36,049 nt of DNA from Burkholderiales bacterium (GTDB lineage Bacteria; Pseudomonadota; Gammaproteobacteria; Burkholderiales; Burkholderiaceae): the NCBI GenBank assembly GCA_026225455.1, contig JAMFSV010000010.1:1-36049 (forward strand), in the 5' to 3' direction. Position numbers and translations under genes: made by a program. Position 1 is the stretch's first letter. The number at the start of each line of letters is the position of its first letter. Of the stretch, positions 2 through 14,800 are shown piece after piece. Below the pieces are notes generated by a model that worked only from the letters and a program-made list of their open reading frames with translations, was not told the DNA's origin and ran no database searches.

Positions 2-1357
2 ATCTGGATCTCCGGCAAAACCCAACTGCCGCTGCGTTGGACCCGCAGAGACGAGCCGGGTGTCGCAACCACCTCGTATGCGGCCTACGGTAAAGGCCGC
101 TATCTGGGCATTCCCTTCAAACAAAGCTGGATCAACCGCGACGGCAATCGCTGGGACCTGACTTTTAACAAAGTACAGACCAACGCCGATCCGCTGCTGG
201 TCGCAGCCAAGGCACAAGCCGCGCAACCGCTTACGGCGGATTATTCGATCGATGGAGGCCGCAGCACGACCGTACCGATGCGCCTGACCGAACAACCGCA
301 TGTCGACGTTTTTATCAATGGAAAAGGCCCGTTTAATTTCCTGCTGGATACGGGCGCAGCCTTGTTGTTATCCAAAACCACGGCGAAGACGCTGGGCTTG
401 AAGCTGACTGGCTCAGGCAGCGAAACCGGGATGGCCGGCGTGGCCACCGCGGAAAAATTCGCACGCATCGAGGACCTCCGGATCGGCGACGCACATGTGC
501 GCGATCAATATTCCGCCGTGATGGATGCACGCTCCACGGGCTTCGACGCGCAGACGGCCGGCGCCATCGGCTATGAAATCCTGGCGCGTTTTACCACCAC
601 CTTCGATTTTCCCAGACAGCTTCTGACGCTGGCGCTCACCCCGGACAGCACCTTGGACGACCACGATGCGCTGCCCTTTGCGCTCGACCACACCATCCCG
701 GCGGTCAAGGCAACGCTTAACGGCGTACCGAGTTATTTTTGGCTGGATACGGGCTACAACGGCACCTTGCTGGTCAATCGGCCGTTTGCCCAGGCCCATG
801 CCGAAGCCATGCCGGGCAGACTGTACGACACCGGCGCATCGATCTCGGGGACGGGCGGCAGCGGCGCAATCAAGCTTGGGCGAATTGCTCAGGTGACGTT
901 GGGCAACGTGCCGTTTAACGATGTGATTGCCTATTTCCCCAACTTCTCGAGCGGTCCCAATACCGATAGCGAATTTGCCGCCGATGCCGGCGATGCATTA
1001 CTCACCTCGTCGGTGTTGACCTTCGATTACCGCACCCGGCGCGCCTGGTTAAAGCTATCCGGCACGGCCACCCCGCCTACCCTCGCCCGTTACAACAAAA
1101 CCGGCTTTAACCTTCAATACAAGGAAGGCAAAGGGGCGACGGTAAGTTACATCGCGGCAGGTTCTCCCGCCGCCGAGCTGGGTTTGAAACAAGGCGACCA
1201 AGTCGTTTCGATCAATCAACAGGGCATTTCCGCCGACACGGTCGCGGCCCTCAAGCTAAGCATTAAAACGGAAAGCCTGGACCCGATACGGCTCTCGGTA
1301 CTGCGCGGCGGTAAAGTCACCGACTTTGAGATTCAACCGCAGGCGTATATTCAGTAA
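2..1357 (+). CDS. Retropepsin-like aspartic protease with C-terminal PDZ domain (5' end outside window)
   Basis: The reading frame is open back to the window edge, so the 451 visible residues lack the N-terminus; the first ATG at 278 is internal. Two aspartic-protease signatures are seen: a DTG at visible residues about 116-118 (context FLLDTGAA) and a second at 249-251 (context FWLDTGYNG). Each is followed by hydrophobic beta-strand-like sequence. Residues about 368-447 resemble a PDZ domain (GSPAAELGLKQGD, then VVSINQ). Two DTG lobes plus a PDZ domain suggest a periplasmic or cell-envelope endopeptidase that folds as a pseudo-dimer within one chain. Any signal peptide would lie outside the window. 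It converges on the 3' end of the large secretion cluster, and processing of that cluster's products is possible but is inference. The family call is good; the substrate is unknown. Confidence 0.75.
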   Translation: MWISGKTQLPLRWTRRDEPGVATTSYAAYGKGRYLGIPFKQSWINRDGNRWDLTFNKVQTNADPLLVAAKAQAAQPLTADYSIDGGRSTTVPMRLTEQPHVDVFINGKGPFNFLLDTGAALLLSKTTAKTLGLKLTGSGSETGMAGVATAEKFARIEDLRIGDAHVRDQYSAVMDARSTGFDAQTAGAIGYEILARFTTTFDFPRQLLTLALTPDSTLDDHDALPFALDHTIPAVKATLNGVPSYFWLDTGYNGTLLVNRPFAQAHAEAMPGRLYDTGASISGTGGSGAIKLGRIAQVTLGNVPFNDVIAYFPNFSSGPNTDSEFAADAGDALLTSSVLTFDYRTRRAWLKLSGTATPPTLARYNKTGFNLQYKEGKGATVSYIAAGSPAAELGLKQGDQVVSINQQGISADTVAALKLSIKTESLDPIRLSVLRGGKVTDFEIQPQAYIQ

Positions 1358-1468: not shown

Positions 1469-3634
1469 CTACGCCCCTGCTTCCCGCTCCACAGTCGCCA
1501 GCAAAGCCCGCAGCCCGCGCCATGCCAGGCTCTCATGGGCACCGCCCAGCACCGCGGTGCCGGCAATCTGCCGCGCCAATACGGGGCTGCCCGTACATTG
1601 CCCGATACGTACCCGGTAAGTGGCGCGCAACGGCACCAGTTGCTGAGTCCCTGGCTGCAGTTCGGCGGGAATCGGACCACCGTAGGGGCTGGCCACATAA
1701 GGCTCGTCCAGGGTCGCCAGATTGACCCGGTCGACCGCTTCGACCCGGCACTTCAAGGCCTTCATTTCCGGCAGCGCGGCGACAAAAACGGCGGCGTCGC
1801 CTGCGGCGATTCGCCCCACCTCATCCTCATCGACAAACGCATCTCCTTTCACTCTTTGGCTGGCCGTGACACCCGGCCCGACCACATCGAACAAGCGTGC
1901 CCCGCGCGGCAGCCAGGCACCCGGCACCAGCCCGTCGTCGGCCGTTTCAACGATGCCGTCAAAGGGCGCGCGCAGCGTCAGCTGAGCGATTTGCGCGGAC
2001 AAACCGGCCACCGTCTGGCGCGCCGCATCGCGTTGCTTTTGCAAGGCCACGCCCTGCTGCTGCAAACGTTCATCGAAAGCTTGCTGCTCGACTTCCCAGC
2101 CCTGCAAGGCCGCTTCGGTTTGTGCTTGCTTGAGTTTATAGTCGAGCTCGGGCGATACCAGCACCGCCAGCACCTCTCCGGCATGCACCGCTTGCCCGTT
2201 ATGCGCCGGGACGGACGGATCGGCAAGCATCCCGGCGACCGGCGCGTACAGTCCTTGCGCCTGCTGCGGACCGAACACCGCCGGCGCACTTACCCCCCCG
2301 TGCCAGGGCAACACCAGCAAGCAGAACAACCCGCCACCCAGCATCGCACTACGCAGAGTCTGCCGCCGCCAGCGCAACGCCGCGCGCCGCTGCCAGCAGG
2401 CGCGGCCTTCACGTACGACCGGCCGCACAATAAACCAGCCGAATTCAATACAGAACAGGCCGATGCCGAGCGCTTTGAAAAACGCGTGATACACCACTAG
2501 AGCAATCGAGAAAAATACTGTCAGCCGGTATAACCAGGTGACGAAGGCAAAGCCGATCAGGAAACGCCGGCGCCGTGGCGCGCACGGTTCGGGTTGCGCA
2601 TCGCCCAAACCAAACAGCCATTCACGCATCCACCAGCGGCCGAAAGCGAAGGCGCGGTCGTGCAAGTTCGGCATATCCAGCCAATCAGACAACAGAAAAT
2701 AGCCGTCGAAACGCATAAACGGACTGGCGTTGATAGCCAGGGTGCCGATCCAGGTGGTGGTCGCCAGCAAAAACGCACCCGCCCGTACCGGTCCATCCGG
2801 CAGCAGATTCCACGCCAGCGTAGCCAGCGCCGCCAGCGCCAGCTCGCTTAACATGCCCGCCGCACCGATGCGCAAGCGCTTGCGGCGATCGGGGACTTTC
2901 CAGGCATCCGTGGTATCGGTGTACAACACCGGCAGCATCACCAGGAATGCCAGGCCCATGGTCGGCACGCGGCAACCGTAGCGATAGGCGGTAAACGCAT
3001 GGCCGAACTCATGCAGGATTTTGGCAAATGCCAGGGCCAGCGCGATGGAAAGCAAACCGCGCAGGTCCGCGTAACCATGGAAGGTATGGACAAACTCATC
3101 CCACCGCCGCGACACCATAAACAATCCGGCGACGGCAATGGCCACCACCACACCCCAGAACACCGGCCGGAAAACCGGCTCGGTGTAACGCGCAAAGCGA
3201 CGCAGGAACGGCATCGGATGCCATAGCGGGATGCGGATCATCAAATAATGCTTGAGCAGCCACATGCCGCCCGTCAGCCGTCCCGCCGCGGCACTGGCCT
3301 GCAGCCGCCGGGTGTCGTCGGCACTCGCCGCCAGCAGCAGATTCTGCTGGCGCAAGGTGCGCAGCAAGGTCTCAAGCTCGTCGAGCGTGACGCTCAGGGT
3401 GGTCTCGCGATTTACCGCGGCAACAATGGCTTCGGGCTCATCGAGCGCCCAGCGCGAGAGCAATTCGAAGGCCGGCCAGCCCAACTGAAAAAAGCGGTTG
3501 GCGGCCGGATCATGCAGCATCCATGTCGGCGCCCCTTCGGGCGAAGGTATGCCGCGGGTCAGCGTGAGTTCCTGACGCAACTGCGGCAGGCGGGTCAGCG
3601 CGGGGATGGGGGTGGCGCTTGAGGGCGTGCTCAT
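1469..3634 (-). CDS. PqqD-like / M50 site-2 protease / HlyD-type adaptor fusion protein (YydH-like)
   Basis: A 721-residue inner-membrane protein with three parts. Residues about 30-105 resemble a PqqD-like winged-helix domain (DPAANRFFQLG). Residues about 155-470 form a multi-pass membrane M50 metalloprotease: HEFGH at 208-212 supplies two zinc ligands and the catalytic glutamate, and the FDGYFLLSDW segment near 309-318 supplies the likely third ligand, Asp310. After a last membrane segment near 455, residues about 480-700 form a biotinyl-lipoyl/coiled-coil adaptor region like HlyD (VAGMLADPSVPAHNGQAVHAG, then LRAPFDGIVE). The layout matches the family annotated as putative peptide zinc metalloproteases (YydH-like). 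It is the last gene of the cluster, 16 bases after the GAF/adaptor gene. It may replace a conventional ABC transporter in the export of the large repeat protein; that is inference. Zinc ligands look intact. Confidence 0.85.
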   Translation of the reverse strand: MSTPSSATPIPALTRLPQLRQELTLTRGIPSPEGAPTWMLHDPAANRFFQLGWPAFELLSRWALDEPEAIVAAVNRETTLSVTLDELETLLRTLRQQNLLLAASADDTRRLQASAAAGRLTGGMWLLKHYLMIRIPLWHPMPFLRRFARYTEPVFRPVFWGVVVAIAVAGLFMVSRRWDEFVHTFHGYADLRGLLSIALALAFAKILHEFGHAFTAYRYGCRVPTMGLAFLVMLPVLYTDTTDAWKVPDRRKRLRIGAAGMLSELALAALATLAWNLLPDGPVRAGAFLLATTTWIGTLAINASPFMRFDGYFLLSDWLDMPNLHDRAFAFGRWWMREWLFGLGDAQPEPCAPRRRRFLIGFAFVTWLYRLTVFFSIALVVYHAFFKALGIGLFCIEFGWFIVRPVVREGRACWQRRAALRWRRQTLRSAMLGGGLFCLLVLPWHGGVSAPAVFGPQQAQGLYAPVAGMLADPSVPAHNGQAVHAGEVLAVLVSPELDYKLKQAQTEAALQGWEVEQQAFDERLQQQGVALQKQRDAARQTVAGLSAQIAQLTLRAPFDGIVETADDGLVPGAWLPRGARLFDVVGPGVTASQRVKGDAFVDEDEVGRIAAGDAAVFVAALPEMKALKCRVEAVDRVNLATLDEPYVASPYGGPIPAELQPGTQQLVPLRATYRVRIGQCTGSPVLARQIAGTAVLGGAHESLAWRGLRALLATVEREAGA

Positions 3635-3650
3635 GGTCTCGACTTTGCCG

Positions 3651-5051
3651 CTACCAGCCCAACCACTGTCGCGCCAGCGTCAACGGCCGGCGCAACACGT
3701 AGTAGGACAGCGGCACCCAACGCCCGTGGATCCGCGCGGTACCCATGGCGCCGAGGACCGGGCGGGTGTCGCCGGTGAAGGTCGCCTTGATGCGGTAGGC
3801 CAGCACCCCTTCCGGAGTCGGCTCGGCACGATATGCCACGGTATCGATACGCGCCTCATAGGCGCTCATCGGCGAGCTTTTCGGGTACAGCGTCAAGGTG
3901 CTGCCGGGTTTGACGTCGACATTGTCGGCCACCGGCAAATAAGCGGTCAGCTCGACCGAAGCCGGGTCGGCCAGCAGCAGGATCTTCTCGCCGACCGCCA
4001 CCGCGCGGCCGGTCCAATCGTTCGGGTCGGCAAACACCGCGACCCCGGCGCGCGTGGCAGTCACACGCACTCGCGCGAGTTGTTGTGCGTTATAGTCGAG
4101 TTCGACCGCGCTATCGTCCAGCTTGCCTTTACGCAACGCCATGTCGAGCCGGTCCTTGTCATCGGTGACGGCCAGTTGCGCGGTCTGACGATATTCTTCC
4201 TGTGCCGTATCGAAATCCTTACGGGCGATGGCATACCGCGACTGCAGCGTGGTGGCCTCCAGGCCGAGCAAAGGTGTGCCGGGCACCACCCGCTGGTTAG
4301 GCTGCACGTAAAGCCGGTCGATCACGCCGTCCAGCGGCGCGCGCACCACAAACGGATCCTTCGCCGTCACTTCGGCGGGCGCCAGCATGGTCAGGGGCAC
4401 CGGCATCACACAGACCGCGGCCAACACAATCAGCGCGCGGCGCAAGTTGCGCCCCGGTTTAACCCAGTTGCGCATGCGTGCGGTCCAGGGCGGACGCGGA
4501 TCGAGCGCGGCAAAAGCATGAGCCCACGCTTGCGCCAGTTCGGAAATCAGCGCGTGTTCGGTCGAGGTCCAGGCGGTATCGCGGGCAAACACCAAGCCGC
4601 CGAGCAGATGGCCGGCGCGATCGGTGAGCGGCACCCACAGGCCGTAAGCCGGCCACCAAGCGTCCCATTCATCGGCCACATGCGCCACCTCAAACGGCAA
4701 GTCGGCCGAGGTGAAGGCGCGTTGACTCTGGGTGTGTTGACTCGGACTCTCTTCGACCGTCTTGCTTGGGTCCTTGGCCAACGAGCGGCACAATGCCGCG
4801 AGCCATTGCACATACGGCGCGCCGGGGTCGCTTTGCGGCAACCCCGACACCGCGGCCACCGCGCCCGGTGCCGGCCCGTGCCACCATGCGGCTTGGCGGT
4901 AGGGCACCAGCGACAGCGTTTCGTTGACGATGGTAAATGCCAGTATCTGCTCGGTGGCAGCCGCGCGAGCGCGCGCCGCCAACTGCCACAGCAGCGCCAG
5001 TTGTGCCGAGTCGATCCTGACTTGTTGCGTCGCTTCGGGAGATGCAGCCAT
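3651..5051 (-). CDS. GAF-like domain / membrane fusion protein (HlyD-type adaptor)
   Basis: A 466-residue protein from the ATG at 5051, five bases after the previous stop; a GTG at 5081 would add ten residues and overlap the upstream gene. The first roughly 195 residues are soluble and look like a GAF-type sensory domain (AYGLWVPLTDRAGHLLGGLVFA, then STEHALISELAQAWAHAFAAL). A single membrane helix follows at about 206-223. Then comes a lipoyl-type half (VVRAPLDGVIDRLYVQPNQRV), a hairpin of mixed helix, and a beta-barrel part (ADPASVELTAYLPVADNVDVKPGS). The GAF-like half would face the cytoplasm and the adaptor half the periplasm. A sensor joined to an adaptor suggests ligand-gated export, which is inference. 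It sits between the short adaptor and the M50 fusion in one tight operon. Confidence 0.8.
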   Translation of the reverse strand: MAASPEATQQVRIDSAQLALLWQLAARARAAATEQILAFTIVNETLSLVPYRQAAWWHGPAPGAVAAVSGLPQSDPGAPYVQWLAALCRSLAKDPSKTVEESPSQHTQSQRAFTSADLPFEVAHVADEWDAWWPAYGLWVPLTDRAGHLLGGLVFARDTAWTSTEHALISELAQAWAHAFAALDPRPPWTARMRNWVKPGRNLRRALIVLAAVCVMPVPLTMLAPAEVTAKDPFVVRAPLDGVIDRLYVQPNQRVVPGTPLLGLEATTLQSRYAIARKDFDTAQEEYRQTAQLAVTDDKDRLDMALRKGKLDDSAVELDYNAQQLARVRVTATRAGVAVFADPNDWTGRAVAVGEKILLLADPASVELTAYLPVADNVDVKPGSTLTLYPKSSPMSAYEARIDTVAYRAEPTPEGVLAYRIKATFTGDTRPVLGAMGTARIHGRWVPLSYYVLRRPLTLARQWLGW

Positions 5052-5056
5052 AACGG

Positions 5057-5830
5057 TCAGGGCGCGGCGAAAGTCGCCCACCCGCTCATGCCGGGCAGCA
5101 GTTCCGGCGCATTGCCCGCGAGCGCCGCCGTGACATCGACGGTTTGCGTCACGGGATCAACCCGCGCCCCGATGCGCGCCACGCGTGCCGGATAAGTCTT
5201 GCCCACTTCGTCGACTTGCACCGACAGCGGATGGCCGGCTTTCAGCCAGGCCAGCCATTTCGACGGCACAATCATTTTGAGTTCGAGGTGGCCGGTATCG
5301 ATAATGGTCAGCAACGGTTTGCCGGCTTCGACAAACTGCTGAGGCGAGGCGGTGCGCTTGGTGACTCGGCCGTCGAACGGCGCCGAAATCACGCACTTTT
5401 GCACGGTCGCCTGCATATACGCGACTTCCGCCGTGCTGGCCTTCATCTTGGCGTCGGCCTGCTCGACTTCGAGTTCACCCACCGAATGGAGCTGCGCCAA
5501 ACGCTGGTCGACTTCGAGTAATTCATGCGCCGCCCCCGCTTCGGCCTGGGCCTTGTGCAATTGCGCCGCGTATAAGGAACAATCGAGCGACACCAGCATC
5601 TGGCCGGCACGGAAGGCATCGCCGTCGCGAAACGGCAGGGCGGCGATTTTTGCGTTGATCTCGCTCGACAGCTCGACCTCATCGCGTGCCACCAGTTGCG
5701 TGCGAATCCGATTGTCATCGGTTGCGGTGGCGGCCGGAGCGCTCCAGCCCCACTGCGCGTACAACAAACCCAATGCGACGATCACGCTGCGGCAGGCAGG
5801 CCTGCTCCATACTCCCGACACTGCCTTCAT
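5057..5830 (-). CDS. Short periplasmic adaptor (HlyD/RND-type membrane fusion protein)
   Basis: A 257-residue protein with an N-terminal hydrophobic segment (residues about 12-30, ending near WSA) that looks like a cleavable signal peptide or anchor. It contains the split lipoyl halves (ALPFRDGDAFRAGQMLVSLD and VISAPFDGRVTKRTASPQQFV), a short coiled coil between them, and a beta-barrel region (GHLELKMIVPSKW). This is the minimal form of the adaptors that bridge inner-membrane pumps and TolC-like channels. The ATG overlaps the stop of the TolC-like gene by four bases, so the two are likely translationally coupled. It is the first of three adaptor-containing proteins in this operon, an unusually high number for one outer-membrane channel. 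Confidence 0.85.
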   Translation of the reverse strand: MKAVSGVWSRPACRSVIVALGLLYAQWGWSAPAATATDDNRIRTQLVARDEVELSSEINAKIAALPFRDGDAFRAGQMLVSLDCSLYAAQLHKAQAEAGAAHELLEVDQRLAQLHSVGELEVEQADAKMKASTAEVAYMQATVQKCVISAPFDGRVTKRTASPQQFVEAGKPLLTIIDTGHLELKMIVPSKWLAWLKAGHPLSVQVDEVGKTYPARVARIGARVDPVTQTVDVTAALAGNAPELLPGMSGWATFAAP

Positions 5831-7350
5831 TGCGCCCCGCCCTGACCGAGCTGTGCCCAGTGTTGCTGCGTCTGGTCGATCGCCTGTTCCAAGGCAGGAA
5901 GATCGTAGCTGGTCACGGCATCGGGGATCGGATCGTAGCCCAGGGTCGCCAGCAATTGGCCATACGCGCCTTCCAGTTCGCCATAACTCTGATACAAGCG
6001 CAATTCCGAAATCATCGCGCTGGTGGCGGCGCGGATTTCCTCAAGTTTGCCTTGAGCGTTAGCCTGCGTCGCGTTATGGGTATGCACCAGAATCTGCTGG
6101 TCGACGTCGTTCATTTGCTTGAGCAAATCGAATTGCCGGTGTTTCGCATCCAGCTCGGTACGGGCCACATGAACCTGCGTCAGCACCGCCATGCTCAGCG
6201 CCAATTGCTGCGTCTTGGCCACTTCCAACTGGGCATTGGCCAAACCCTTGATGTTCTTCAGGTTCAGGAGGTTCAACAAGTTCCAGCTCACGCTTAGTCC
6301 CGCGGCGCGCCAGGCGTGGTAGTTCAGGAAACTATTGCTATCGTAATGAGCGCCAAGTTCCAGCTCGATACCAGGCATCAACTTGGCCAGCGCCTTGTGT
6401 GTTTCATTCAAGCTGATGCGTTCGTTATAACCGGCTTCGACCAGCTCGGGACGCCGTTCGAGGGCAGTCTCTTCCATCTGCTCCATCGGCATATTGAATG
6501 CCGGTACTCCGAGGCCTTCCGGCGGCGCCAAGGTAAAGTCCTTGCCCGGCTCAAGATCCATCAGCGATGCCAGACGCGGCTTGGCCTCGTCGAGTTGGTC
6601 GCTGATGGTTTCGAGCTGGCGCATGATATCGAGCAGTTCGTGCTGATAGTTCAAGGTCTCGAGCGGCCCGCGCAATTGTTCATGCTGCGCTTGCCTTGAA
6701 TCGTCCAGTGCCGCCCGAGCCTGATCCAGCAGAGGGCCGATGCGGTCGTGCAAACGCTGCGCGCCGGCAGCCTGCCAATAGGCTTCGCGGACCTGCTGCA
6801 TCATCAGTTGCACCACCTTGCGGCGGCGCTGTTCCAGCACCAGCACGCGATCGGATTGTTCCTTGGCTTCGAAATAACTGACACCGAAATCGAGCAGGTT
6901 CCAGGTAAAGCCAAGGTCAGCGGTACGATCGTTCTGATCGCTGGAATAGGATTGCGGTACTGTCGTTTGGCCGGGATTGAACAAACTGGTCGATGATGAA
7001 GCCAACGGCACGCTGCGGTTGGTATAACCGGCCTGGGTCGTCAATTTCGGCAGCATATCGAAATTCGACAAATCGAGTTGTTTCTGCCCCAGCACCTCTT
7101 CCATCATTTTCAATCGATGGTCGAGGTTATACCGAATCGCACGCGCCATCGCTTCATCCAGCGTCACCGGCCCGCTCAACGGTTGCTGCTGGCTGAACAT
7201 GGCGGTGCGGTCGGCTTGCGCCGTCTGCTTCAATTCAGCATCGGTGAATGGGGCCGGTTTGATCGCGCAAGCGGATAGGCATAAAGCAGCGACCGCGACG
7301 GCCACCAGTGAAAGAGCGTGTGTGCTGCATGGCATGGCGTTTTTCTTCAC
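5827..7350 (-). CDS. TolC-like outer-membrane efflux lipoprotein
   Basis: A 507-residue protein starting at GTG 7350 (an ATG at 7335 is an alternative). The N-terminus is a lipoprotein signal peptide with a basic start, a hydrophobic core and the lipobox LSAC at residues 25-28, so Cys28 should be lipidated. The rest is rich in long amphipathic helices and contains two outer-membrane efflux protein repeats (about residues 60-260 and 285-480), typical of the trimeric TolC channel-tunnel. Features such as GFTWNLLDFGVSYFEA and GLSVSWNLLNLLNL match strands in this family. It would supply the outer-membrane exit for the secretion system, docking with the adaptors encoded directly downstream. It begins 67 bases after the end of the giant repeat-protein gene. 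Confidence 0.88.
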   Translation of the reverse strand: MKKNAMPCSTHALSLVAVAVAALCLSACAIKPAPFTDAELKQTAQADRTAMFSQQQPLSGPVTLDEAMARAIRYNLDHRLKMMEEVLGQKQLDLSNFDMLPKLTTQAGYTNRSVPLASSSTSLFNPGQTTVPQSYSSDQNDRTADLGFTWNLLDFGVSYFEAKEQSDRVLVLEQRRRKVVQLMMQQVREAYWQAAGAQRLHDRIGPLLDQARAALDDSRQAQHEQLRGPLETLNYQHELLDIMRQLETISDQLDEAKPRLASLMDLEPGKDFTLAPPEGLGVPAFNMPMEQMEETALERRPELVEAGYNERISLNETHKALAKLMPGIELELGAHYDSNSFLNYHAWRAAGLSVSWNLLNLLNLKNIKGLANAQLEVAKTQQLALSMAVLTQVHVARTELDAKHRQFDLLKQMNDVDQQILVHTHNATQANAQGKLEEIRAATSAMISELRLYQSYGELEGAYGQLLATLGYDPIPDAVTSYDLPALEQAIDQTQQHWAQLGQGGAQ

Positions 7351-7417: not shown

Positions 7418-10400
7418 TCAAGCCACATGCAATTCGCGCCGCAGGCGTTCGAATTGCGCGGTGAGCGAAGGCTTCGCTGCCGGTGCCGCCGCATGCGGCA
7501 CGGGCGGCGCGGCCGGACGAGCCGGGGCATGGGCAGTTGAACGGGCGGCCTGGTTCGCGCCCAGATTGACCACCACCTCATGACGCGTGAGATGCCCGGC
7601 GCTGTCGCGCTGCACCACCACCAGCCGCATCACCCGCGGACCATCGGGTGGCGCGGTGCCGCTCAAGGTGCCGGTGGTGGCGTCGAAATGCACCCAGCTC
7701 GGCAATACCTGACCGTCGGCTTGGCGCACCGTCACGCTGCTTCTATCGCCGGTGGCCGTGGGAATCGCGTTTTGCAAGGTCAGCGAAAACGGCTGATCGG
7801 CCGCGACCGTAATGCGCTCGACACCGGGCGGCGGAGCAAACGACGGCTGGGTCGAGGTGAAGCTCGAGAGTGTCTGGCCCGGTTGGTTTGACACGCTGGT
7901 AGTACCAAACACATCTCCCACACCGCCGGATGAAAACGTCGTGGTATGAACCGGGGCAATCCCGCCGACCTGCGTGGACGGGTCGAAGGTGCTCAACACG
8001 ATCAGCGGATTGGAGGGGCCGTCGCTGCTTGCGGTAGTTCCATCGCCGCCGCTCGAAGATGAGGAATCGGGAGTACTGGACGGAGTCGATACCGTATGCG
8101 CGGTAATTTGCTGGGCGTCGACCACCACCGAAGCGGTCACTGCCACGCTGGATTTCACCCCATCGCTGACCGAGAAACTCAAGACGCGGGTACCACTGCT
8201 TGCACTGGCCGAACTCTCGCCGTAAGTGACGGCATTCAAGGCGGCCTGCCATTGCGCCACGGTCGCAGTCCGGCTGGCGGACGTCAAGGTCAGCACACCG
8301 GTACTGCTGTTATATGACGATGTTATATCGCCATCGACCGCAGCGCCTGAATTGGTGAAGCCGAGCACATCCGCACCCGCATCGAAGCCACTGCCGATCG
8401 AGACCGTAGCGGATGCCAGTGCCGTATTGCCGCGATCGATCAAGCTCAGGGCAGGAGCTACGGCCACCACCGAACTGGCGCCGCTGGCAGTCAAGGTCAC
8501 ACTCACGTTGCCGCCGCTGAGCAGCGGCGTCTGGTCGGTATCGGCTACCGTGACGCTGCGCGTTGCGGCCGCGCTGGTGTTGCTACCGTCATTGACCACA
8601 AAGCTGATGGTGCGAGTTGCGGGGTCCGGATTAATCGCCGTGTCGGTATAGGTCACCGCTTCCAGTGCCGCTTGCCATTGCGCCGTGGTCACCCCCGCGC
8701 CGGCCGTCAAGGTCATGACACCGGTGCTCGAATTATATGACTCGTTGATACCGGCAATCGGACCCAACGACAGTACGTCCTCGCCCGCATGAAAATTGCC
8801 GGTGATCGCTACCGTGGCCGAGGCCAACGTCGAGCTGGCGGGATCGGTCACGGTCAAGCCAGGATCGATCGCGACCGGGGTCTGGATCACCACGTTGTCG
8901 CCGGCGGTAAATGCCGCCGAACCCGTATCGGTGGTGACGACCGGCGCCGGATTAAGCACGTCGACCGTCTTGGTCGCGGCGACGCTGTTCTCGGTGCCGT
9001 CGTTGACCACAAACGAGATAGCGCGGTTGCCGAAGGTACTGCTGGTGCTGGAGAAGGTTACGGCATCGAAGGCATTCGCCCATTGAGCATCGGTCGCCGA
9101 CAAACTCACCGAGGTCAACGTCAGCACACCCGTGGTGGAGTTATACGTCGCCGAAATATTGCCGAAAGTCGTGTTGTTGGTATTGGTAAACGACAAGATA
9201 TCGCCGCTACTAAAGCCGCTGCCGATGGATACCGTCCCCGAAGCCAAGGTCGCGTTGTCGCGATCGCTGACACTCACGCCGCCATCGATTACCGTCGCGT
9301 TCATGCCGCCGATATAAGCTGTGGTGCCGGCGGTGCTAACCACCACGGGCGTCTGATCGGTGTCGGCTACCGTAACGGTGCGGGTTGCTGCCGCGCTGGT
9401 GTTGCTGCCGTCATTCACCGTAAAACTGATGGTACGCGTGACAGTGTTCGGGGTGATCGCCGTATCGGTATAGGTCACCGCCTCCAGTGCCGCTTGCCAC
9501 TGCGCTGTGGTCACGCCCGCGCCGGCCGTCAAGGTCATGACACCGGTGCTCGCATCATATGATTCGCTGATACCGGCAATCGGGCCCAACGACAGCACGT
9601 CCTCGCCAGCGTGAAAATTGCCGGTGATCGATACCGTGGCCGAGGCCAATGTCGAGCTGGCCGGATCGGTCACGGTCAAGCCGGGATCGATCGCGACCGG
9701 GGTCTGGATCACCACGTTGTCGCCGGCGGTAAATGCCGCCGAGCCCGTATCGGTGGTCACCACCGGATCGGGATTGGCGACATCGAATGTCTTGCTCGCG
9801 GCGGCGCTGTTCTCGCTACCGTCATTCACCACAAACGAGATGGTGCGGTTGCCATAGGTGGTGCTGGTGCTGGAGAGGGTTACGGCATCGAAGGCATTGG
9901 CCCATTGGGCATCGGTTGCCGATGAGGTTGCCGAGGTCAAAGTCAGCACACCGGTCGAGGAGTCATACGTCGCTGAAATATTGCCGAAGGTGGTGCTGCT
10001 GGTATTGCTGAACGACAAGGTATCGCCGCTGCTAAAGCCGCTGCCGATAGACACTGTCCCCGAAGCCAAGGTCGCATTATCGCGGTCGCTGACCGTCACA
10101 CCGCCATCGACTACGGTCGCGGCCATGCCGCCAATATAAGTCGTGGTGCCGGTGGTGCTAACCACTACCGGCGTCTGATCGGTGTCGGTTACCGTGACGG
10201 TGCGGGTTGCTGTCGCGCTGGTGTTGCTACCGTCATTCACCACAAAGCTGATGGTGCGGGTTGCGGCGTTCGGTACGATCGCCGTATCGGTATAAGTCAC
10301 CGCAGCCAGCGCCGCCTGCCATTGCGCCGTGGTCGCACCGGCGCCGGTCAAGGTCATGACCCCGCTGGTCGAATCGTAGGAGCCGGTAATATCTCCCATG

Positions 10401-13400
10401 GTCGAGCTATTCGAGGTGAGAGAGAGCTGATCTTCGCCGCTGTGGAAATTGCCGCTAATCGATACGGTGGCCGAGGCCAGCGTCGCACTGCTTCCATCCG
10501 ACACCGTCAAACCCGAATCGACGGTCACCGGCGTCGAGGTCACATTGTCGCCTGCGGTAAATACCGCCGAACCCGAGTCGAGCGTGAGCACCGGCGGCAC
10601 AGTCACGGCCACCGTCTTGGTCGCGGCCAGGCTATTTTCGCTGCCGTCGTTGACCACAAACGAAATTGTCCTGTTGCCGGCGGCAGTGCTCGCCGCGGCG
10701 GAGAAGGTCACCGCATCGAAGGCACTCGCCCACTGCGCATCGGTTGCCGACGAGGTCGCCGAGGTCAAAGTCAGCACACCGGTCGAAGAGTCATACGATG
10801 CCGAAATATTGCCGAAGGTCGTATTGCTGGTATTGCTGAATGACAGAATATCGCCGCTGGTAAAGCCGCTGCCGACGGAGACTGTGCCCGATGCCAAGGT
10901 CGCATTGTCGCGATCGCCGACACTCACGCCGCCGTCAATCGCGGTCGCGGCCGTGCCGCCAAGGTAGGCCGTGGCACCGCCGGAAGTGCTCAGCAACGGC
11001 GTCTGGTCGGTATCAGCCACGGTGACGGTGCGAGTCGCAGCCGCACTGCTGCTGATGCCGTCGTTGACCACAAAGCTGATGGTACGGGTGGCGGTATTCG
11101 GCGTGATCGCCGTGTCGGTATAGGTGACCGCGGCCAACGCCGCCTGCCATTGCGCCAGGGTAGCGCCGCCCGAAGCGCTCAACGTCAGCACGCCCGTGCC
11201 GGCGTTGTAGGAAGTTTCGGCAATATCGCCGAAGGTAGTATTGCTGGTATTGGTAAACGCCAGCGTGTCTTCGCCGCTATGGAAGCCGGTGCCGATCGAG
11301 ACCGTGGCCGAAGCCAGCGTCGAGCTGTTTGGGTCAGTCACCACCAAACCGGAATCGATGGCTACCGGCGTCGAGGTGGTATTGTCACCAGCGACAAATG
11401 CCGTCGACCCCGAATCCATGGTCACCACCGGAATTACGGCGGTGACGTCGATCGTCTGATTCAGCGCCACGCTATTTTTGCTGCCGTCGTTGACCACAAA
11501 TGAAATGGTGCGGTCGCCGCCGGTGGCACTGGACGCATCCGAGAATTTGACCGCGTCGAGCGCGGCTTCGAACTGCGCGACAGTGGTAGCGCCCGTCGCC
11601 GTCAGGGTCAAGACCCCGCTGCTGGAGTCATACGATTCCGTGAGGTTGCTACCCATGGTCGAAGTGTTGATGGTCAAAGCCAGCGTGTCGCCATTCTGAA
11701 AGCCGGCGCCAATCGAGACCGTCGCCGAAGCGAGATCGGGGCTGTCGCTGTCGCTTGCGATAATGCCGCTGTCAACTGTCACTGCGGCGCTACCGGCGGT
11801 ATAAGCCGCGGTGGTGCCCGCGCCGGTCACGATCGGTGTTTGATCCGTATGTGTAACCGCCACCGTCTCGGTGATGGTGTTACTCGTGCTGTAAGGATCG
11901 TTGAGGCTGAAGGTAATATTACGCGTGGTGGTGGTCGGCGACGCCGCCGTGTCGTTATACGTCACCGCATCCAATGCAGCCTGCCATTCGGCGGTGGTGG
12001 CAGTGCCGCCGCTCGAAGTCAGCGAAAGCACACCGGTGCCGGTGTTGAAACTCTCGGCGATGTTGCCCATCGTCCCGCTATTGAGCGTGAGACCCAGCAC
12101 ATCCTGCCCGGAAACAAAGTTGGCAATCGTGACGGTAGCCGAACTCTGCACGGTGCTGTTGCCGTCGGCCAGCGTAATGCCGCTATCGACCACCACCGGC
12201 GTATTGCCGCTATGGGGATCGGCTTCGACCAAACCGCTGTTGCCCCCGCCCTTGGCTAGCACCGGCGGGCTATTCATGTCGGTGTAGGTGAGATTGTCGA
12301 TGGTCGGGAGAAAGACCCCCGAACTGTCGCCGACGTCGACGATGGTAAAGCTGGTGATACCGGTAAAGGCCGAATTAGTCGATACATCGACATGAAAAGT
12401 GGTTTCTTCGCCATCGCCGCCGGTGGTCAGGACGATTTTATCGTTGGGATTGCCGTTGGCTTCGATCCAGACCGATGTCCCGGCAATCACATCGATATCG
12501 AAACTTTTCAACGCCATCGGATCGCCGTCACTGAGCTTGATATTGACGCTGGACAGCGGCGTGGCGTCCAGGTTCATAAACAGCACCCCATTGTTGGGCG
12601 CGCTGGAAGTGGTCAGCGGCGGCGGCCCGAACTGGTTTTCGTTAAACGAATCCACCACGCTTTCGACCGCTTGATCGGTGGTGTAAGTGATGCCGTCCAA
12701 GGTGAACGAAGTTGTGCCCGACTCGCCGCCCGGGGTATCGAAGCCGACGTCGGCATCGTAGGTCTCGTCGGTTACGCCGAGCAGACCGTCATAGGCGGGA
12801 AGGTTGGCGCCGAACAAGGCTTTTGCCAGACTCGGGCCGGTCGAATATTCGAGGGTCCAGTCACCGCCCAGCGAAGCGGCACCGGTGTTGTCGGTCGAGG
12901 CGGCGACGCTGGTATGCATCAGGCCGGCAATCGACTGCACCAAAGCCTGACCATCGGCTTGCTCAGCCACGTCGCAACCGTAGATCTGAAATTGACCGCC
13001 GGCCTTCAGGCTGGCGCCGATACTGCTAAGGTCGGCCGCATACTCGCCGATGTCGGCATTGGTCAACCATGAGGAACCCGCCTGGATCGCGCCATCCATG
13101 CCGTGGGAGATCAGCGAAATCGAGGTGATGCCGGTTTTGCCCTGCAGATAACTGGCCATCTGCGCAAACCCGTCTTGATTCGGGTCGAGTATCACATAGG
13201 TGGCATTGGCCGGCAGCGCCGCAATCAGCGCTTGATAATCGCTGACGCTGGAATCGATAAACACCACTTCAGTGGGCGCGGGAACCGTCGCCAAAGCCGC
13301 ATCGCGGGCGGCGCCGATTTGCGCGGAGGCTGTCGTGATCGGCGAGTTCGTCGAACGATCGGCGGCCTGATTCGAATAACGCGCCGCGCCGATTTGAGCG

Positions 13401-13615
13401 GAAGCGGAGAACTCGCCGCTTTCGGCCGCGCCGATGCGCGCCGTCCCATGCACACCTCCCGTTTCATGCGAGTGCTGCGGCACCACCAGGCTCGCCACCG
13501 ACGCGTCATAGACGATGCGCGGTTCAAGCGGCAGTAGTAGCGCAGCCGGAGTAACCGTGGACGCTTGAGCGTCGGTACCGGCGAAGCATTTCAGGATTTG
13601 CGTGACGAGACTCAT
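7418..13615 (-). CDS. Giant LEPR-motif, DUF4347, tandem-repeat surface/secreted protein
   Basis: A 2065-residue protein. ATG 13615 is preferred over an in-frame GTG at 13636 because of the typical N-terminus MSLVTQILKC. Order of parts: an LEPR motif at residues about 30-33 (context LEPRIVYDAS), seen at the N-terminus of many giant adhesins; a linker with three SAQIGAAR-like peptides (about 58-105); a DUF4347 domain (about 115-265) with invariant-looking His171 (LISHG) and Cys214 (IYGCDVA); a jelly-roll-like region (about 285-450); ten tandem beta-rich domains of about 134 residues (about 494-1837); a Ser/Gly-rich linker; a cadherin-like/putative-Ig domain ending in WVHFDATTGTLSGTAP (about 1910-2015); and an Ala/Pro-rich tail. 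No classical signal peptide and no GGxGxDxxx calcium nonapeptides are seen. It is the probable cargo of the downstream TolC/adaptor/M50 genes, with adhesion or biofilm as the likely role (inference). Confidence 0.85.
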   Translation of the reverse strand: MSLVTQILKCFAGTDAQASTVTPAALLLPLEPRIVYDASVASLVVPQHSHETGGVHGTARIGAAESGEFSASAQIGAARYSNQAADRSTNSPITTASAQIGAARDAALATVPAPTEVVFIDSSVSDYQALIAALPANATYVILDPNQDGFAQMASYLQGKTGITSISLISHGMDGAIQAGSSWLTNADIGEYAADLSSIGASLKAGGQFQIYGCDVAEQADGQALVQSIAGLMHTSVAASTDNTGAASLGGDWTLEYSTGPSLAKALFGANLPAYDGLLGVTDETYDADVGFDTPGGESGTTSFTLDGITYTTDQAVESVVDSFNENQFGPPPLTTSSAPNNGVLFMNLDATPLSSVNIKLSDGDPMALKSFDIDVIAGTSVWIEANGNPNDKIVLTTGGDGEETTFHVDVSTNSAFTGITSFTIVDVGDSSGVFLPTIDNLTYTDMNSPPVLAKGGGNSGLVEADPHSGNTPVVVDSGITLADGNSTVQSSATVTIANFVSGQDVLGLTLNSGTMGNIAESFNTGTGVLSLTSSGGTATTAEWQAALDAVTYNDTAASPTTTTRNITFSLNDPYSTSNTITETVAVTHTDQTPIVTGAGTTAAYTAGSAAVTVDSGIIASDSDSPDLASATVSIGAGFQNGDTLALTINTSTMGSNLTESYDSSSGVLTLTATGATTVAQFEAALDAVKFSDASSATGGDRTISFVVNDGSKNSVALNQTIDVTAVIPVVTMDSGSTAFVAGDNTTSTPVAIDSGLVVTDPNSSTLASATVSIGTGFHSGEDTLAFTNTSNTTFGDIAETSYNAGTGVLTLSASGGATLAQWQAALAAVTYTDTAITPNTATRTISFVVNDGISSSAAATRTVTVADTDQTPLLSTSGGATAYLGGTAATAIDGGVSVGDRDNATLASGTVSVGSGFTSGDILSFSNTSNTTFGNISASYDSSTGVLTLTSATSSATDAQWASAFDAVTFSAAASTAAGNRTISFVVNDGSENSLAATKTVAVTVPPVLTLDSGSAVFTAGDNVTSTPVTVDSGLTVSDGSSATLASATVSISGNFHSGEDQLSLTSNSSTMGDITGSYDSTSGVMTLTGAGATTAQWQAALAAVTYTDTAIVPNAATRTISFVVNDGSNTSATATRTVTVTDTDQTPVVVSTTGTTTYIGGMAATVVDGGVTVSDRDNATLASGTVSIGSGFSSGDTLSFSNTSSTTFGNISATYDSSTGVLTLTSATSSATDAQWANAFDAVTLSSTSTTYGNRTISFVVNDGSENSAAASKTFDVANPDPVVTTDTGSAAFTAGDNVVIQTPVAIDPGLTVTDPASSTLASATVSITGNFHAGEDVLSLGPIAGISESYDASTGVMTLTAGAGVTTAQWQAALEAVTYTDTAITPNTVTRTISFTVNDGSNTSAAATRTVTVADTDQTPVVVSTAGTTAYIGGMNATVIDGGVSVSDRDNATLASGTVSIGSGFSSGDILSFTNTNNTTFGNISATYNSTTGVLTLTSVSLSATDAQWANAFDAVTFSSTSSTFGNRAISFVVNDGTENSVAATKTVDVLNPAPVVTTDTGSAAFTAGDNVVIQTPVAIDPGLTVTDPASSTLASATVAITGNFHAGEDVLSLGPIAGINESYNSSTGVMTLTAGAGVTTAQWQAALEAVTYTDTAINPDPATRTISFVVNDGSNTSAAATRSVTVADTDQTPLLSGGNVSVTLTASGASSVVAVAPALSLIDRGNTALASATVSIGSGFDAGADVLGFTNSGAAVDGDITSSYNSSTGVLTLTSASRTATVAQWQAALNAVTYGESSASASSGTRVLSFSVSDGVKSSVAVTASVVVDAQQITAHTVSTPSSTPDSSSSSGGDGTTASSDGPSNPLIVLSTFDPSTQVGGIAPVHTTTFSSGGVGDVFGTTSVSNQPGQTLSSFTSTQPSFAPPPGVERITVAADQPFSLTLQNAIPTATGDRSSVTVRQADGQVLPSWVHFDATTGTLSGTAPPDGPRVMRLVVVQRDSAGHLTRHEVVVNLGANQAARSTAHAPARPAAPPVPHAAAPAAKPSLTAQFERLRRELHVA
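8105..12136 (-). repeat. Ten in-frame tandem domain repeats of about 134 codons
   Basis: Each unit runs from a TVSIGxGF-like strand through SYDSSTGVLTLT, AQWQAALxAVTY and RTISFVVNDG to a linker ending in ASA or ASG. Units 3, 5, 7 and 9 share TYTDTAI and ADTDQTP. Units 4, 6 and 8 share FGNISA, TDAQWA and GSENS. The array therefore alternates A and B types with a super-period of about 820 bp. Units 1, 2 and 10 at the edges are the most diverged, as expected when internal units are homogenised by recombination. Confidence 0.85.
8600..9762 (-). repeat. Near-identical 822-bp-spaced copies inside the repeat array
   Basis: The segment around 8600-8940 recurs at 9422-9762 with an exact offset of 822 bp (274 codons). 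Long stretches are nearly identical at the DNA level, including synonymous positions, for example around 8855-8930 against 9677-9752. This points to recent duplication or gene conversion of one A+B domain pair. Confidence 0.8.
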
Positions 13616-13672
13616 GATAACCACCCGGCATAACACTAGTGCCGCCGCCCACCGGGCGGCGGTTTCCCGCGC

Positions 13673-14350: not shown

Positions 14351-14701
14351 TCATGAAGCGGCAAGCGCCTGCACCGGACGCTCGATATGAAACACCGCGC
14401 ACATCGTGGCGCGACCGTCGGCGCGCGGCCGGGTGGGTGTGATCAGCAGATCCCAAGCAGTGCCGCCGGGCGACGTCACGCAATAAACATCCTGCGGCAA
14501 AAAAACGCCCTGGGGCAGATCGAACGTCGCCGAATAACACACGTAGGTCTCGTCCATGGCAATACCTTCATTTACCGCGGCAAGCGTGGCTGGAACGCGC
14601 CACAGGGGTTGATCGGCCACAGTGGACCCTGCCTCCGGCGTCAGCGAAAAAGCAAGGCCGAGCGAGGCCAGCAACTCGGCTTGGGTTGGCATACCTGACA
14701 T
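14351..14701 (-). CDS. DUF6916-like small protein
   Basis: A protein of about 116 residues. ATG 14701 is chosen because the purine-rich ggaggagggg block on the complement lies directly before it. That block lies inside any version starting at 14713, and ATG 14692 is a good alternative. The sequence (TQAELLASLGLAFSL, then VCYSATFDLPQGVFLPQDVY and PTRPRADGRATMCAVFH) resembles the DUF6916 family, small proteins often encoded next to stand-alone tail-collar genes. There is no signal peptide or membrane helix. Function is unknown; a chaperone or accessory subunit for the collar protein is a guess from position only. The pattern of a beta-rich barrel with a C-terminal FHIERP strand is typical of this family. 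Confidence 0.62.
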   Translation of the reverse strand: MSGMPTQAELLASLGLAFSLTPEAGSTVADQPLWRVPATLAAVNEGIAMDETYVCYSATFDLPQGVFLPQDVYCVTSPGGTAWDLLITPTRPRADGRATMCAVFHIERPVQALAAS

Positions 14702-14800
14702 CCCCTCCTCCATCCATCGTGATCAATCGTGTATTGCATCCGCATGGCCGCCATAGGATCGCCCGCGCCGCCCCTCCGTCATCCGGCAACAGCCCCCGGT

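Follow-up and report, generated by a model that had tools for sequence, protein, structure and literature searches.

Which machine exports a giant repeat protein whose own operon encodes an outer membrane channel and three adaptors, with no ATP-binding cassette (ABC) ATPase beside them? The question is raised by a stretch of 36,049 nucleotides from a Burkholderiales bacterium (assembly GCA_026225455.1, contig JAMFSV010000010.1, positions 1 to 36,049), hereafter the window, in which genes for a TolC-like channel, a short HlyD-family adaptor, a GAF-HlyD fusion and a PqqD-like/M50/HlyD fusion follow the gene of a giant DUF4347 protein. Judged from sequence, these four genes would constitute a dedicated exporter, devoid of an ABC ATPase, for giant repeat proteins bearing an N-terminal LEPR leader, a reading on which we consider the balance of evidence to be about even. 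The five genes, in the order of their transcription, are the following:

7418..13636, minus strand: giant DUF4347 repeat protein, presumed cargo, 2,072 residues as listed (open reading frame call)
5827..7350, minus strand: TolC-like outer membrane channel of 507 residues with a lipoprotein signal (LSAC); OEP/TolC Pfam match at 4.2e-23, lipobox read from the sequence
5057..5830, minus strand: short soluble periplasmic adaptor of the HlyD family, 257 residues; HlyD_3 at 3.1e-22
3651..5081, minus strand: GAF-HlyD fusion of 476 residues, with a GAF domain (residues 21-197), one membrane span (about residues 216-234) and an adaptor domain; HlyD_3 at 1.3e-13
1469..3634, minus strand: fusion of a PqqD-like domain, an M50 site-2-type protease and a HlyD domain, 721 residues; Peptidase_M50 at 4.2e-7, HlyD_3 at 7.1e-10

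The spacing within this set is operon-like, with overlaps of 4 and 25 bases and gaps of 16 and 67 bases, and a scan for promoters and terminators of the locus gave results at chance level only. Dozens of genomes repeat the gene order of the window, so the four-gene arrangement is not due to chance. The module shares with type I secretion, as known from HlyB-HlyD-TolC and from LapBCE-type adhesin export, a TolC-family channel, adaptors of the HlyD family and a giant repeat protein as presumed cargo. It differs from it by the absence of an ABC ATPase in the locus, by its three adaptors, two of which are fused to further domains, and by the N-terminal leader.

No ABC_tran match was found on the contig of the window. 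In a set of 74 loci carrying the M50 gene, ABC genes, sought with a home-made profile derived from 7 regex hits, were absent within 3 kb of M50 in all cases, 59 loci offering at least 3 kb on both sides and 15 less than 3 kb on one side, while for most of them up to about 9 kb of flanking sequence was covered on each side. Eight of these 74 loci do contain an ABC-like gene, which always lies downstream and at least 3,078 bases away. A second set of 35 named loci (Paraburkholderia, Trinickia, Burkholderia, Pandoraea, Bordetella, Achromobacter, Dyella, a Geobacteraceae metagenome-assembled genome and others), 31 of them with 3 kb on both sides, contains an ABC gene in three, at 3.1, 3.8 and 9.1 kb; L014 of this set is the same locus as L071 of the set of 74. 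An ABC gene hidden in the vicinity was rejected on the basis of the contig and of the 74 loci. The preliminary description of this DNA had reported a tight operon of four genes behind a giant repeat protein and without an ABC ATPase by the cluster, and both statements stand, every gene having been found at its place on the minus strand.

The distribution of the module relative to its presumed cargo was analyzed in a sample of 300 genomes of the order and in another of 299 genomes of the phylum, in which the M50 fusion was found in 50 and 73 genomes, respectively, with only three candidates scored per genome in the M50 profile searches. DUF4347 is also present in 50 genomes of the order sample, and 37 possess both. 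The curated profile of the leader (NF012209, LEPR-XLL) gave 104 matches at E 0.05 in the order sample. Frames of at least 800 residues hold 84 of them, and all 84 belong to M50-positive genomes (34 genomes out of 34, from 18 families). M50-positive genomes account for nine further matches in frames below 800 residues, and M50-negative genomes for 11, all in frames of at most 651 residues. Since these E-values are per genome and about 15 chance matches are expected per 300 genomes at E 0.05, the 11 short-frame matches fit the chance expectation. The phylum sample gave a similar picture, with 91 matches, 72 of them in long frames and 71 of these 72 in M50-positive genomes (51 of 52 genomes, three of the 52 being shared with the order sample); at E 1e-3, all 35 genomes with a match are M50-positive. 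The 800-residue cut was chosen after the list had been seen, and without it the M50-positive genomes hold 93 of the 104 and 82 of the 91 matches. The corresponding Fisher values (6e-33 and 1e-38) overstate the certainty because the genomes are related. The largest frame in both LEPR lists is an open frame of 19,427 residues (match at G388:C115:112865-112924).

In the order sample, the N-terminus of each of the 78 DUF4347 matches was also read, and the leader was found on 49 of the 53 DUF4347 genes of M50-positive genomes (46 with a first regex, 3 with a wider one) and on one of the 25 of M50-negative genomes. The window M50 protein, searched against 13 genomes (the 12 M50-negative DUF4347 genomes other than G073, plus G355), returned a single fragment, which lies at the edge of a contig of G183, a genome counted among the M50-negative DUF4347 genomes. 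Conversely, a long-frame LEPR match is lacking in 16 of the 50 M50-positive genomes of this sample, including that of the window, whose leader is missed by the model. M50 as a free-standing system was rejected, as 46 of these 50 genomes have a LEPR giant or DUF4347; as to the remaining four, a 217-residue frame of G172 gives a LEPR match on the M50 contig, about 0.4 kb ahead of the contig end, and in G130 a giant open reading frame precedes the TolC gene. The module is thus tied to DUF4347/LEPR giants, and neither of the outcomes by which the preliminary description would have been refuted was observed: close loci do not constantly carry an adjacent ABC gene, and M50 does not occur mostly without the adhesin.

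The module of the window represents one branch of a broad family. A FastTree phylogeny of 74 M50 proteins, rooted at the midpoint, from which three partial matches of 73 were omitted and to which four loci from outside the order sample were added, separates a clade A of 35 loci, including the window, from a clade B of 39 loci. The usual order in clade A is giant, TolC, HlyD, GAF-HlyD and M50, and none of its 35 loci has an adjacent SecA-like gene, whereas a SecA-like ATPase, mostly of 650-745 residues, is adjacent in 35 of the 39 clade B loci. In three of the remaining clade B loci (L117, L121 and L129) the contig ends less than 100 bases behind M50. The same contrast is observed at the level of whole genomes: at E 1e-20, all 22 genomes limited to clade A have a single SecA gene, and one SecA match was found in the genome of the window, which is 70.75% complete, while at least two are present in each of the 19 genomes limited to clade B. 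An extra SecA-like gene located elsewhere in the clade-A-only genomes was rejected on this count, from which second SecA matches at E of about 1e-5 in G048 and G051, and also in G014 and G030, were left out as they were taken to be helicase-like.

The leaders also fall into two variants, type A being typically LEPRx[M/L/V][F/Y]D[G/A] and type B LExRx[L/M]x[S/A][A/G/T][D/E]. Among 28 linked pairs, defined as a leader and an M50 gene within 35 kb on one contig, 20 associate type A with clade A and seven type B with clade B, one leader (with clade B) being untyped, so that variant and machine clade agree in all typed pairs (27 of 27). The 22 unlinked leaders comprise 15 from single-clade genomes, all 15 in agreement, six from two-clade genomes and one from a genome without M50. 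According to hydropathy, 48 of the 50 leaders have no strongly hydrophobic core, which sets them apart from ordinary Sec signals; the two exceptions include the leader of the window, owing to residues ahead of a likely later start.

The positions of the leader and of the other recognizable parts of the giant protein of the window are as follows:

13499..13528, minus strand: N-terminal leader motif LEPRIVYDAS, type A, residues 37-46 of the open reading frame as listed (regex)
12782..13267, minus strand: DUF4347 domain, residues 124-285 (6.9e-50)
7421..7474, minus strand: C-terminal motif KPSLTAQFERLRRELHVA, a short motif with [L/F/M]xxQ[F/L/M] near the C-terminus

The protein also has a cadherin-like match in the Pfam scan, and neither the Pfam nor the NCBIfam scan detected an RTX or other type I secretion domain. 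Type I cargo bears an uncleaved signal at its C-terminus, often along with RTX repeats; here a conserved motif is present at the C-terminus. It shares the leader motif of the cargo family NF012209, although its LEPRIVYDAS form gives no match to this profile and was found by regex; among eight N-termini or proteins compared with NF012209, L068 and L061 pass the cut-off and L120 and L076 fall just below it.

At the opposite end, the motif [L/F/M]xxQ[F/L/M] was recognized in 49 of the 54 giants that precede modules of clade A or of window-like type, L014 and L071 both being among the 54. It was found in 32 of 32 close relatives and, once the near relatives L071 and L072 are set aside, in 15 of the 20 giants that are divergent, against a background of 55 in 631 open reading frames for which the residue class was slightly narrower and many frames were merely mechanical. 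The C-termini of 14 leaderless DUF4347 giants unlinked to M50 are different, most of them showing by eye repeats which we take to be of the DUF4214 type, as if these proteins were served by another export route. Nearly all of the M50-unlinked L138-L147, L149, L151, L152 and L154 start near DUF4347 without a leader, L143 having LEQR. A third kind of end combines a segment resembling a membrane span with PxW[RK]xxDPL and a charged tail in L061, L122 and L076 (clade B genomes), L098 (basal clade A) and L264 (phylum sample), and is a possible substrate of the site-2 protease; by regex, the signal PAW[RK]xxDPL with a membrane span is limited to four giants, plus one similar. Lastly, 20 further C-termini of large LEPR giants were compared by eye, 17 of which reach a stop codon and three a contig end, and the very large L247, L252, L259 and L262 share an end with a tryptophan, DF or VF, and [N/R]PN[A/S]xL.

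The two fusions display an anatomy suited to the inner membrane. In the M50 fusion, two parts can be placed on the sequence:

3329..3583, minus strand: PqqD-like N-terminal domain, resembling a recognition element of ribosomally synthesized and post-translationally modified peptides (RiPPs), about residues 18-102 (family profile)
2999..3013, minus strand: zinc-binding HEFGH (HExxH) of the M50 domain, residues 208-212 (alignment)

A profile of the N-termini of ten M50 fusions matches the PqqD structures 3g2b (E 6e-4) and 5sxy (0.014), and the Pfam PqqD family matches five of 12 members; the window protein alone has no Pfam PqqD match. H208, E209, H212 and D310 are invariant in the 12 members of alignment A1, HExxH is kept in 17 of 17 aligned members, Pfam M50 matches 12 of 12, and the HExxH and NxxPxxxxD residues of the window protein are intact. 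Seven hydropathy peaks, three of them overlapping, and seven long helices in a poor structural model point to about seven membrane helices. This model chiefly matches adaptors, with a weak match to the site-2 protease 3b4r (E 0.028) and nothing at Z of 8 or more. The GAF fusion has a single span according to hydropathy and, as the number of spans is odd in both fusions, the fused adaptors would be periplasmic if the N-terminal domains are cytosolic. Residues 21-197 of its model match the solved GAF domain of PtsP (Z 15.7, root-mean-square deviation 2.8, 148 aligned residues) where Pfam gives no GAF match, and its adaptor half matches the structures of MacA and MexA. These results bear out several domain calls of the preliminary description: GAF is right by fold though without Pfam support, PqqD-like is right for the family profile and not for the window protein alone, and DUF4347 and LEPR are right even though NF012209 itself gives the window protein no score. 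The inner-membrane role it had suggested for the protease-adaptor fusion likewise fits the PqqD-like domain, the helices, the intact catalytic residues and the HlyD domain.

A working scheme for the module can be derived from this composition. The PqqD-like domain of the M50 fusion would bind the LEPR leader in the cytosol. The M50 and GAF-HlyD fusions may together form an inner-membrane base, and the soluble adaptor and the TolC lipoprotein, as their families indicate, would complete the duct. The intramembrane protease may then remove the leader or release the cargo, and the coupling of cleavage to export suggested in the preliminary description is a possibility. The motor of clade B would probably be the adjacent SecA-like ATPase; that of clade A would have to come from elsewhere, most likely from the housekeeping SecA, and this is the weakest step of the scheme. 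Extended further, the scheme would make of the module a route separate from type I secretion and not one of its branches, in which the PqqD-like domain reads the leader, the giant is threaded through a base of intramembrane protease and GAF protein, each fused to its own adaptor, and cleavage of the leader or anchor releases it. The motor would be interchangeable, SecA-like in clade B and, in clade A, which has none of its own, the housekeeping SecA or a folding or proton ratchet, while leader variants and machine clades would be cognate pairs. This extended proposal is possible, and we advance it tentatively, at a likelihood clearly short of even.

Several observations weigh against a dedicated exporter of LEPR-leader giants. 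A leader without a hydrophobic core would be odd if the housekeeping SecA were the motor, which makes this SecA only the least unlikely candidate for clade A. The M50 model is poor (mean pLDDT, the predicted local distance difference test, of 60.9) and for this reason does not allow an M50 pore to be judged. Exceptions to the associations also exist: L061 is a real case of a clade B locus without a SecA-like neighbor, G312 carries a leader with no detectable M50, four of the 53 DUF4347 genes of M50-positive genomes are leaderless (one at a contig edge), and G355, the sole exception of the phylum sample, has a weak LEPR match (E 0.033) with no M50 found. Moreover, the agreement between leader and clade in linked genes could partly reflect common descent. 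Finally, the genome of the window, which is 70.75% complete, has 82 ABC_tran matches (E 1e-3) outside the contig, four of them below the cut-off of the family, and an unlinked ABC partner is therefore possible.

Such a partner is at the center of the alternative that survives best, an ordinary type I secretion system with split genes, in which the pore as well as the energy would come from the unlinked ABC ATPase, leaving to the M50 and GAF fusions an accessory part in processing and regulation. Components of type I secretion can be encoded apart, and the adaptor domains resemble MacA and MexA. This alternative nevertheless appears rather unlikely to us, considering the 74 loci without an ABC gene within 3 kb (15 of them with less than 3 kb on one side), the SecA-like ATPase that the sister clade has at the expected place of the motor, and the other C-termini of the leaderless giants unlinked to M50. 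It is less probable still that the module processes or anchors the giant after its export by another route such as Sec. M50 is a protease and the membrane-span-like ends with PxW[RK]xxDPL would suit this function, but an operon with its own TolC and three adaptors brings more than processing needs, and 48 of 50 leaders lack a Sec-like core. A RiPP-like maturation and export of a small peptide, with the giant gene as an incidental neighbor, is highly improbable: the PqqD-like domain and the closest curated family of the M50 part, the daptide protease NF041824 (2.2e-46, 158.7 bits, residues 46-393 aligned), speak for it, but this score is under the family cut-off of 300 bits and LEPR giants track the module over 18 families of the order sample and also in the phylum sample. 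The M50 part shares with the daptide protease and with YydH-type peptide metalloproteases the architecture of an M50 intramembrane protease, and differs by its fused C-terminal HlyD domain and its giant-protein neighbors.

On either side of the five genes, the window contains further features of interest. Directly preceding the giant gene are a phage-tail-collar gene (PF07484, 13673-14284, minus strand) and a small gene (14351-14713, minus strand), for which phmmer found no homologue in loci L001-L048, few of which extend that far. Convergent with the M50 gene is a two-domain retropepsin-like aspartic protease with a PDZ domain (2-1357, plus strand).

The dedicated exporter proposed here has a precedent in part. 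Kamneva, Poudel and Ward (2015, PMC4452313) described, in the portions of their paper available to us, loci with a secondary SecA_DEAD, GAF-HlyD, M50-HlyD, HlyD and sometimes OEP, in which they found no ABC transporter and for which they proposed SecA as the ATPase and M50 as a membrane pore. These loci and the window have in common that M50-HlyD and GAF-HlyD are encoded together; they possess the SecA_DEAD ATPase, in contrast to clade A, to which the window belongs, and the clade B kind is the one already described in that work. The preliminary description had spoken of an undescribed variant of type I secretion, and in this form the statement is not supported, as the kind is not entirely undescribed: the sister loci and the idea of M50 as the pore date from 2015. 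The main text of PMC4452313 contains no occurrence of DUF4347, cadherin or giant, and its available portions name no cargo, leader or PqqD-like domain; among the papers citing it, none was relevant among the matches listed. As far as the open-licence part of PMC shows, preprints being outside this scope, the clade without SecA, the LEPR cargo, the pairing of leaders with clades and the PqqD-like domain are new. Two other reports concern the cargo side: in the available text of PMC12322963, the DUF4347 protein BTH_II1339 of Burkholderia thailandensis ranks among the proteins most strongly increased in stationary phase, and in that of PMC10868602 a Vibrio giant of about 8,000 residues combines an N-terminal LEPR-XLL with RTX and serralysin domains at its C-terminus and might serve as a case for testing LEPR outside the M50 system.

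The finding is genuine and of greater interest than first stated, although its kind was foreshadowed in 2015 in what is available of PMC4452313. One branch of these modules does without the ATPase that was then proposed as their driver. The analysis bears on how proteins of 2,000 to more than 10,000 residues are exported without an obvious pump: a predicted machine, uncharacterised as far as the searched papers show, is now paired with a likely cargo and an address tag, and the PqqD-like domain is named as a candidate reader of this tag.

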